Of a stretch of 64,000 bases of DNA, positions 53,758 to 56,303 are shown piece after piece. Under the pieces are notes generated by a model. The model did not search any database, was not told where the DNA came from, and saw nothing but the letters and a program-made list of their open reading frames with translations. This DNA comes from Actinocatenispora sera (lineage in GTDB: Bacteria > Actinomycetota > Actinomycetes > Mycobacteriales > Micromonosporaceae): the NCBI RefSeq assembly GCF_018324685.1, contig NZ_AP023354.1, positions 1,550,001 through 1,614,000 on the forward strand, in the 5' to 3' direction. Within the stretch, counting starts at the first letter, position 1. Each line of letters starts with the position of its first letter. Position numbers and translations under genes: made by a program.

Positions 53758-55433
53758 TCAGTTGGTGAGTTTGGCGTGCACGAACGACTGGCGGCCGGCC
53801 GGGTCGATGGTCAGCCCGGTCACGTTCTTCCGGTACGCCAGGTCGACGGTGAAGTCGGCCGGGAAGATGCCGACCGCGTCGGACCAGATGATCTGCGCCG
53901 CCTGCTTGTACAGCGCGGTGCGCTCGGCCGGGTCCAGCGTGGCCTTCGCCTGAGCCAGCAGCGAGTCCAGCTTGTGGTTGCAGTAGCCCATCCGCTTGGC
54001 GTCGCAGGTGTAGAGCCGGCCCAGGGTGTAGTCGGCGTCACCGGTGGCGACCGTGTTGCCCTGCAGGTTCATGTCCCACTTGAGCTTGTTCAGGTCCTCC
54101 AGCCAGACCGAGCGCTCCTTCGGCAGCGGCTTGACCTTCACGCCGATCTTCGCCCAGTACGAGACGAACGCCTGGCCGAGCGAGTTCTGGTTGGTGTCGT
54201 CGGAGCTGGCCCACTGGATCGTGGTGGAGAACCCGTGTGGGTAACCCGCCTCCGCGAGCAGCTTCTTCGCCTTCGCCGGGTCGTACGGGTAGGGCGACAG
54301 CTGCGGTGCGCCGAACACCGGCTGCGGGATCGGCGCCTGCGCCAGCTTCGCCTGCTCGCCGTACAGGTCGCCGACGATCTGCTTGACGTCCACCGCGTAC
54401 CACAGCGCCTGCCGGACCCGCTTGTCGGTGAACGGCTTCCGGGACGAGTTGAACCAGATGAACTCGTAGCTGTAGCCCGGCTTCGTGTCGTACGTGACGC
54501 CCGGCATCTTCTTCACCTGGTCGACCGAGTCGGCGCCGATGCCGTTCGTCACGTCCGCCTCCCCGGTGGACAGCGCGGTGATCCGGGCCGACTCCTCCGG
54601 GATGTTCAGGTACGTGATGGCCGGGATGGACGGCTTGGCCCCCAGTACTTCGCGTTGCGGGACAGCACCAGCTGCTTGTCCGGCGACCACTCCTTGACCG
54701 TGTAGGGCCCGGTGCCGATCGGCTTCTTCCAGTACGACTCGCTGCTCGCCTTGCCGGCCTCGGTGATCGGCAGCAGGCTCACGGTGGCGAGCATCGTGCC
54801 GAGCGGTTGGGCGGTGGTGATGGTGACGGTGTGCTCGTCGGTCGCGGTCACCGACTTCACCGGCTCCCACAGCGGTGCCAGCGAGCTGCCCGCCTTGATC
54901 AGCGCGTCCGCGGACGCCTTCACGTCGTCGGCGGTCAGCGCCTTGCCGTCGGAGAACTTCACCCCGGAGCGCAGGGTGAACGTCCAGGTGGTGTCGTTCG
55001 GCTGGCTCCACTTGGTGGCGAGCCGCGGCTGGTAGTCGTTGCCCGAGCGGGTCACGAGCGTCTCCAGCACGTGCTGCACCGGGCCCTGGACCGCGGCCTC
55101 GGCGGGGTACTGGTAGATGTTCAGCGACACCGGGAACGTGGCCGGTGCCACCCGGAGGCCCTTACCGGCGGCGTTCTTGGCCGATTCGGTTGCGCCGCAG
55201 CCGGTCGTGGCGAGCACGCCGGCGAGGGCGAGCACCCAAAGGGCGTGTTTCAGGATCCCGCGTGCCGGCTGCGGCGGCCCCGTTCGCCCGCTCGCGGCGT
55301 TGTCGGACAGCCCGTGTGCAAGCCCGGCACACGAACTGCCCTCCGCCTTGCGAGCAGACGAACGGGACTCGCCTCGCTCGGCCGGGGGTCCTGAAACATG
55401 CCCTGGCGTGCTGGTCATCGTGCGTCGTCTCAC
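53758..55433 (-). pseudogene. Peptide/nickel-type ABC substrate-binding lipoprotein, frameshifted
   Basis: Two overlapping frames together give one complete SBP_bac_5 (DppA/OppA-like) protein. Frame one (55433 to about 54640): signal peptide and lipobox LATTGCGA, then YQPRLATKWSQPNDTTWTFT and ending VLSRNAKYWG. Frame two picks up AKPSIPAITYLNIP and runs to KLTN at 53758. The break is at a C-run, 54639-54643; one extra base restores the frame. The first 60 residues before the signal peptide are abnormal and come from the palindromic element at 55241-55403. Partner of the permeases and ATPases at 58103-61954. GTG start behind GAGGAG. Confidence 0.82.
55241..55403. mobile_element. 163-bp nested palindromic (MITE/foldback-like) element
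   Basis: Outer arms GGGCGTGTTTCAGGATCCC (55241-55259) and GGGTCCTGAAACATGCCC (55386-55403); middle arms CCCGTTCG-N3-GCTCGC (55279-55295) and GCGAGC-N3-CGAACGGG (55350-55366); inner GTGTGC/GCACAC (55314-55332). All share a centre near 55322. It lies in frame inside the N-terminus of the binding-protein gene. No transposase and no clear target-site duplication are seen. Confidence 0.6.
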
Positions 55434-55442
55434 GGTTTCTCC

Positions 55443-56303
55443 TCAACTCGTGAAGCGGTACGTGCACTGGACGGGTTTGTGATCCGACGGCGCCACGCCG
55501 CCGGAGAAGTACTCGACGACCTCCGCGCCGGCCGCGCGCAGCGGGCCGCGGAAGAACTGCCAGTCGATCGTCTTCGCCGCCGCGTACGTGTCCGGCCAGT
55601 CCCGCGGCTTGTCCAGCGGCAGGGGATACACCGGATGGGTGGCCGGCGCGACCATGCCGAGCTGGCCGAACGGTTCGCGGTAGTCGCCGTCGTAGAACGT
55701 CCACAGTGGACGGGCGTAGTCGTTGGTGTCGGCGGTGAACAGCACGGCGGTCCGACCGGGCCCCGCGTCGCCGGTGGCCGACCCGCCCTGACCGGCGAGG
55801 CGGCGACCGGGCCCCGCGTCGCCGGTGGCCGACCCGCCCTGACCGGCGAGGCGGGCCAGCTCGGCGACGATGGCCCGGGACTGCTCGACCCGGGGGCTGC
55901 GGTCGTCGGCGATCTCGCGCGGGTGGCCGGGCCAGGTCAGGTGCGCGGTGGCGAACACCAGCTCGGTGCCGGCGGCGGGGCACGCCAGGCGTACCCAGAA
56001 CAGCCGGGCGTGCTCCGACCAGATGCCGACGTCGGCGGCGCCGTGCTCGATCTCGTCGAACAGCCCGCGGCGCCACCACAGGTTGCTTCGGGTGGCCCAG
56101 CCCTCGAACCCGTCCCGTACCCGGTCGTGGTCGGCCAGGGCCGCGTCCACCGCGGCGCGCGAGTCGGGGTGCAGTTCCTGGGTGGCGAGCAGGTCGGGCG
56201 AGCGCCGGGTGAGCAGCTCGGTCAGCGGGTCGCGTCGCTCGTCGAACCGCCAGCCGCCCCACAGGTTGTAGGTCATCGCGGTGAACGTCACCGGGTGGCT
56301 CAT
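55443..56303 (-). CDS. Endonuclease/exonuclease/phosphatase-family protein
   Basis: 286-residue EEP-fold hydrolase. Motifs: MTYNLWGGW (metal-binding Asn), LATQELHPDSR (Glu), FATAHLTWPGHP (His), LFTADTNDYARPLW (Asp/Asn) and the final VAPSDHKPV (Asp-His). Could cleave phosphodiesters of sugars, lipids or nucleic acids. No signal peptide. It carries an in-frame 17-residue duplication (RLAGQGGSATGDAGPG twice) just before the LFTADTN strand. The start overlaps the histidine phosphatase stop (ATGA). Confidence 0.87.
   Translation of the reverse strand: MSHPVTFTAMTYNLWGGWRFDERRDPLTELLTRRSPDLLATQELHPDSRAAVDAALADHDRVRDGFEGWATRSNLWWRRGLFDEIEHGAADVGIWSEHARLFWVRLACPAAGTELVFATAHLTWPGHPREIADDRSPRVEQSRAIVAELARLAGQGGSATGDAGPGRRLAGQGGSATGDAGPGRTAVLFTADTNDYARPLWTFYDGDYREPFGQLGMVAPATHPVYPLPLDKPRDWPDTYAAAKTIDWQFFRGPLRAAGAEVVEYFSGGVAPSDHKPVQCTYRFTS
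55754..55855. repeat. 51-bp tandem duplication inside the EEP gene
   Basis: Copies 55754-55804 and 55805-55855 differ only at the junction base. Being 51 bp it adds exactly 17 residues and keeps the frame. Confidence 0.92.

Follow-up and report, generated by a model that had tools for sequence, protein, structure and literature searches.

The 64,000-nucleotide stretch of the Actinocatenispora sera genome analyzed here (the window) contains a lipoprotein gene with a long nested palindrome near its start, which raises the question of what this palindrome is, how it came to lie within a reading frame, and whether it has relatives elsewhere. A sequence-only reading had placed it at 55241-55403, described it as inserted in the gene and translated in frame, and likened it to a MITE or REP-like mobile repeat, possibly undescribed. 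We consider it quite probable that this palindrome represents a non-autonomous MITE-type element, present in several copies and about 160 bp long, moved by an IS5-family transposase, in which an inner core has been retained.

The window copy, its host gene and the empty sites

The palindrome itself is real, and only its bounds had to be shifted, by one base: because the orthologous empty sites show a CTGG junction, the body was set at 55242-55402 and the insert at 161 + 4 = 165 bp, which is 55 codons in frame. The arms (55240-55259 and 55385-55404, 20 nt each) are 90% complementary, and the terminus of this copy is AGGGCGTGTTTCAGGA. Folded as minus-strand RNA, the 163 nt form a single hairpin of -125.9 kcal/mol (z -11), a value as low as which was found in none of 200 shuffled sequences (mean -76.5, sd 4.5); the plus-strand DNA fold has a z of -7.0. 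No transposase was found inside the element, and the open reading frames across the window copy are read-throughs only. The features are collected in Table 1.

Table 1. Positions, in window coordinates, of the hairpin element, its parts and its host gene.
Feature	Position	Strand	Remark
Element body	55242..55402 (161 bp)	-	minus strand is the better RNA fold
Left target-like flank, AAAG	55238..55241	.	CTAG in the majority of 21 aligned copies
Right target-like flank, CTGG	55403..55406	.	CTAG in the majority of 21 aligned copies
Left terminal inverted repeat, outer helix H1	55242..55259	.	unlike the common CTAGGGTCTGTTTCG type of the genome
Right terminal inverted repeat	55385..55402	.	altered in step with the left repeat
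Motif A, left side, CCGGCTGCGGCGG	55265..55277	+	by eye in copies with differing termini
Motif A, right side, CTCGCCTCGCTCGGCC	55368..55383	+	by eye in copies with differing termini
Motif B, left side, GGCGTTGTCG	55296..55305	+	cross-phylum
Motif B, right side, CTCCGCCTTGC	55341..55351	+	cross-phylum
Core match to covariance model R1	55284..55363	-	58.2 bits, E 3.4e-12
Host gene 5' part, SBP_bac_5	54606..55433	-	insert between start and signal peptide

The host gene encodes a family 5 extracellular solute-binding protein (SBP_bac_5), a lipoprotein, with a GTG start at 55433 on the minus strand. The in-frame translation holds: from this GTG the frame continues across the insert and on to the signal peptide, and the element, which landed behind the start codon, has passed into coding sequence with the host frame kept open. 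Orthologues in two congeners (G001 and G003) encode proteins 92-93% identical to the host gene product, and both sites (L095 and L096; L097 of G002 was left out of the comparison) are empty, with no insert and CTGG at the junction. The 4-bp flanks, read by eye against the empty sites, fit a duplicated CTGG/CTAG, and are degenerate in the window copy; in the other copies, CTAG may instead belong to the terminus itself. Further downstream, the frame of the solute-binding protein is broken near 54640 and open in the orthologues, so that the gene has decayed or the sequence contains an error at this point. Separately, a neighboring gene contains a perfect 51-bp tandem duplication (55753-55854; two copies, in frame by length).

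One core under different termini

The A. sera genome (G000, 7.04 Mb, one contig) yielded 38 matches to the window palindrome, 21 of them near full-length (at least 85% identity over at least 130 of the 163 bases, window copy included) and 17 of them 93-100% identical over at least 143 bases. With these copies, and with the insert absent from L095 and L096, the alternative of a single-copy sequence present in all orthologues falls away. Three congeners, among 61 genomes searched, have 13-15 matches each. Copies are dispersed, occupy sites resembling CTAG (an ancestral CTGG for the window copy), are bounded by terminal inverted repeats and lack a transposase. The majority ends in the alignment of 21 copies are CTAGGGTCTGTTTCG...CGAAACAGACCCTAG; the window copy and L003 depart from these, with both arms altered alike. 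The 14-mer TAGGGTCTGTTTCG is present in 5 of 151 genomes (A. sera and relatives), with 38 occurrences in G000 and 50 in G040; its backward control does not occur in either of these two. Solo hairpin ends (L048, L049, L052-L054, L057, L058) and pairs of about 50-60 bp (L056, L059-L062) with the same 13-nt terminus, allowing up to two mismatches, were also observed and are probably deletion remains of hairpins.

Comparison of individual copies suggests that termini are exchanged. The window copy is identical to L002 and L005 at 121 of 123 body positions, and its terminal 20-mers differ from theirs at 4-5 of 20 positions on each side; likewise, L003 and L005 agree at 122 of 123 body positions and differ at 6 of 20 in the terminal 20-mers. 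Overall, the body of the window copy or L003 is identical at 120-122 of 123 positions (98-99%) to that of copies with differing termini (4-6 of 20 positions on both sides). A similar case was found in genome G417 (gapped alignments), where the core of L312a resembles that of L309 (49/51) more than that of L311 (43/52), whereas its arms resemble those of L311 (43/47 and 46/53) and not those of L309 (27/50 and 33/60). L312a adjoins another copy, and since the cores of the two are alike at 48 of 51 positions, gene conversion between neighbors may underlie this case. The exchange could have occurred either by new termini joining an old body or by core gene conversion between neighboring copies.

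Weaker matches, from congeners and other families, have a common interior and quite different inverted termini. We searched the genome collection with the pattern GGCGTTGTCG-N25-50-CTCCGCCTTGC, by which exact motif B is imposed on every match. The pattern matched at least 119 stretches; the 80 matches listed came mostly from Streptomyces and other Actinomycetota, and included Lachnospiraceae, other Bacillota and Betaproteobacteria. Some matches (e.g., Bacteroidales L106) lack a hairpin and resemble coding sequence. In the viral collection, 21 stretches matched and 5 of these passed the terminal-repeat filter, L242 weakly. The placed elements that passed numbered 126, of which 76 are distinct and up to 235 bp long, the commonest length being 160-169 bp (33 of 76). 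Among the 58 distinct elements of at least 145 bp, CTAG stands at both ends in 22, at one end in 9 and at neither in 27, compared to 3 of 464 control windows, with the terminus finder giving a small bonus for TAG that bears on these counts. Eighteen of the 76, including elements of Rathayibacter and Betaproteobacteria, are 80-119 bp as delimited and show no CTAG ends by eye; in some Betaproteobacteria elements CTAG lies farther out than the delimited ends. Motif A was not seen in the Bacillota copies. Similar hairpins occur in at least 40 Streptomyces plasmid records, with no telling annotation among the 20 matches listed.

One inner core hairpin with two asymmetric conserved sequences is common to elements with unrelated termini in three phyla. 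Because this interior recurs in such distant bacteria, the inner hairpin is suggested to do something of its own. As a side observation, the core hairpin of two betaproteobacteria (L130 and L172) apparently lies at the same place, with flanks alike by eye, and is perhaps a retained, domesticated copy. In G040, the G000-type terminus was also seen enclosing a different core, and even standing alone as a 28-bp palindrome; this second hairpin family (L068, L069, L072, L073, L080, L087) folds better, in six of six stretches, on the strand with the GGATGAGAGTCGAG-type sequence at the 5' side.

Core structure and strand bias

In an alignment of 36 chosen sequences (A1), 15 of 21 pairs are changed on both sides, with a covariation score of 0.556 versus 0.180 when shuffled. 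The core helices thus vary in sequence yet stay paired around motif B, and the conservation just past motif B (GA after GCAAGGCGGAGG, etc.) is not imposed by the search pattern. With only 12 candidates scored in each genome, covariance model R1 found matches in 33 of 396 from the phylum. Since a palindrome kept by repair would covary too, it is the wobble bias, and not the covariation, that argues for selection on a single strand.

The minus strand gives the better RNA fold in 74 of the 76 distinct elements, a count to which the constant core contributes. Where the two arms do not match, the mispairs are mostly of G:U type on this strand: 119 on the minus strand versus 34 on the plus strand in the outer 25 bp, 205 versus 25 in the middle part (which holds motif A where present) and 61 versus 25 in the inner loop, counts that come from related copies and are not independent. 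By host, the outer counts (minus versus plus) are 32 versus 3 in Streptomyces, 11 versus 2 in Pseudonocardiaceae, 14 versus 0 in Rathayibacter, 3 versus 0 in Nocardioidales with Jiangella, 10 versus 11 in the A. sera genome and its kin with Micromonospora, and 41 versus 13 in unlabeled hosts; in Bacillota (8 versus 4, and 11 versus 8 in another count) and Betaproteobacteria (0 versus 1) a bias is not shown. Host labels were taken from record titles, leaving 26 of 76 elements unlabeled, and L037, of another family, was counted with the A. sera kin. By these per-host counts, a clear bias is confined to several Actinomycetota. The copies of the A. sera genome are unbiased in the outer part (17 versus 21) and biased in the middle part (59 versus 3). 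Under a looser BLAST setting, 74 of the 76 elements fall into one cluster; stricter grouping gives five clusters, four for the bias and one against.

With respect to genes, 38 of 107 placed elements lie between converging genes, 9 between diverging genes and 10 inside a gene, and those between tandem genes have their RNA strand with the genes in 22 cases and against them in 28. Placement used crude gene calls that miscalled the window copy as intergenic; near-identical copies were kept and 17 more elements were unplaced. Because the mismatches are mostly of G:U type on one strand whatever the gene direction, these data point to selection of the Actinomycetota element to fold as an RNA or single-stranded DNA hairpin; the selected form would be its RNA or a single-stranded DNA intermediate.

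Candidate mobilizers and alternative explanations

The IS427-type subgroup of the IS5 family uses TA/CTAG targets. Genes with the DUF4096 domain, a mark of the IS5 family, turned up in 16 of the 20 genomes searched for them and were not found in G000, where PF13340 and PF13586 both gave no matches and no IS sharing the hairpin terminus was found. A nine-copy, 895-bp IS5-type IS of G000 was rejected as the mobilizer, as its ends are CTAAAGGTTGTCCCGTAAT and not those of the hairpin (six of nine copies read). In other genomes, several DUF4096 IS have ends of the type CTAGGCAGCGTCTTGTCGATCA (L248), close in sequence to CTAGGGGGTGTCTTGTCGATCA, a hairpin end in the same genome (L141). A second IS5 subgroup, kin of the nine-copy IS, ends in CTAAGGGCTGTCCCGTAA (L276), and a hairpin of another genome (L212) has one end starting with CTAAGGGCTGTCCCGT. 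We selected 11 IS5-type termini in which an inverted repeat led by CTAG or CTAA could be seen; they came from 30 loci, 20 of 30 further loci, and L090; many other IS loci scanned had no clear terminal repeat. Scored past the first four bases, 9 of the 11 outscore 497 or more of 500 shuffles in their match to some hairpin terminus (best match, 18/18), and 2 are unremarkable. By these likenesses, the hairpin termini fall into one sequence class with IS5-family IS ends of two subgroups. In G417, the resident IS427-type IS shares, by our count, no more than about 15 of 20 terminal positions with the hairpin, and in G487 no IS-sized pair of the hairpin terminus was seen. At L268 (807-1949), an IS5-family IS (CTAGGGCGTGTCTGGTGGATC to GATCCGTCAGACACGCCCTAG) directly abuts a core hairpin that ends in CTAGGGCACGTCTGACGGATC and CTAGGGCGCGTCTGGCGGATC (the latter also given as GATCCGCCAGACGCGCCCTAG); the two have nearly identical ends, and one CTAG is common to both.

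A different IS was observed beside hairpins in the A. sera genome. The four copies listed of a 1.59-kb IS encoding a 522-aa NF041680-type transposase (G000:C1 near 2796000, 3121000, 3549000 and 3598000; L063-L066) all abut a hairpin, in both hairpin orientations, and share its CTAG. Because CTAG occurs only about 0.28 times per kb in the window (18 observed versus 155 expected from base composition), it looks as if this IS targets the hairpin end. Insertion of IS targeted to REPs is on record, according to passages of PMC1525189.

We propose that an IS5-family transposase acting in trans would recognize the terminal repeats, move the element and join it to a CTAG-like target with a 4-bp duplication. 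Because the core is kept while the termini are exchanged, it would survive changes of the mobilizing IS. The known MITEs mobilized by IS5-family IS are likewise short, gene-free and multi-copy, with IS5-like inverted ends and CTAG-like flanks; the present family differs in having a cross-phylum core under different sets of termini, and no identical-ended IS was found in its own genome. MITEs are commonly held to derive from IS, according to passages of PMC10969869, and the element could simply have arisen by internal deletion from one IS5-family element, with an interior of ordinary debris whose conservation reflects recent spread. The 17 highly similar matches in the genome fit such a spread. 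However, the interior recurs in three phyla with unrelated termini, and it covaries; moreover, the lone motif-B pair near an IS in 30 IS loci (that of L268) lies outside the IS, within its own hairpin. We therefore regard simple internal deletion as unlikely.

The strand-specific pairing, conserved unpaired bases and freely varying helices would also suit a REPIN-like or attC-like single-strand hairpin, handled by a Y1 transposase or another structure-recognizing enzyme, with the likeness to IS5 being secondary. Solo ends and short pairs are seen with REPs as well, and REPINs (PMC3116915, PMC3733652) share paired inverted ends, solo ends and hairpins with the present family. In contrast, the hairpin termini match the ends of DDE-type IS, and only 4 of 17 genomes with hairpins yielded a Y1 transposase (G000, with one gene, among them), while none was found in the other 13, including the single-contig G417 and G487, which makes this explanation very unlikely. 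REPIN/RAYT systems, as described in PMC3733652, have a GTAG or CGTC tag beside a 20-40 bp hairpin, compared to the CTAG-like flank and hairpin of about 160 bp found here. The earlier term REP-like, in the strict sense of RAYT-moved and GTAG-tagged, is thus not supported, whereas MITE-like is borne out by the multiple copies, terminal inverted repeats, absence of a transposase, empty sites, 4-bp target-like flanks and termini resembling IS5-family ends. Least probable of all, in our estimate, is a conserved functional RNA hairpin, such as a terminator or a gene-end stability element, that merely looks mobile. It would account for the strand-specific wobble bias, the excess between converging genes (by the crude gene calls) and the shared site of the core in L130 and L172, but not for the even orientation to tandem genes, the empty site or the CTAG flanks. 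Given the empty site, it is wrong as a full account, although it may be true of the core alone.

No description of the family was found in open-licence papers, including by a text search for the motif letters. Rfam 15 returned one sub-threshold miRNA match in window positions 54500-56000 (34.2 versus 268 bits) and no match on any hairpin at seven loci, so that within these sources the suggestion of an undescribed element stands. Passages of PMC2229807 describe ERIC/IRU, Correia/NEMIS and YPAL as palindromes of 100-200 bp with long stem-loop transcripts, many of them TA-terminated, and report an orientation-dependent effect of ERIC on mRNA. These families are alike in palindrome size and stem-loop form; as described there, they belong to particular groups (such as enterobacteria, Neisseria and Yersinia), whereas the present family spans three phyla with exchangeable termini. 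The same source describes Rickettsia palindromic elements as in-frame palindromes in protein genes; here, intragenic insertion is exceptional (10 of 107, by calls that missed the window copy).

A broader interpretation, which we put forward tentatively and as possible rather than probable, is that the family consists of transposon parasites, with a structured core, folded on one defined strand as RNA or single-stranded DNA, kept across Actinomycetota, Bacillota and Betaproteobacteria and outer repeats swapped according to the available IS5-type transposase. If this is true, the core would have a selected role; for example, it might recruit a transposase or a host factor, or give rise to an RNA that works at a distance from where it is made. 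For A. sera, the window copy represents a mobile hairpin adding 55 codons ahead of a signal peptide. MITEs are usually regarded as degenerate IS whose interiors are free to vary. If an interior is conserved across phyla and only the ends that face the IS are replaced, such elements would have a function of their own, and the motif, covariance model and strand defined here make this open to testing.
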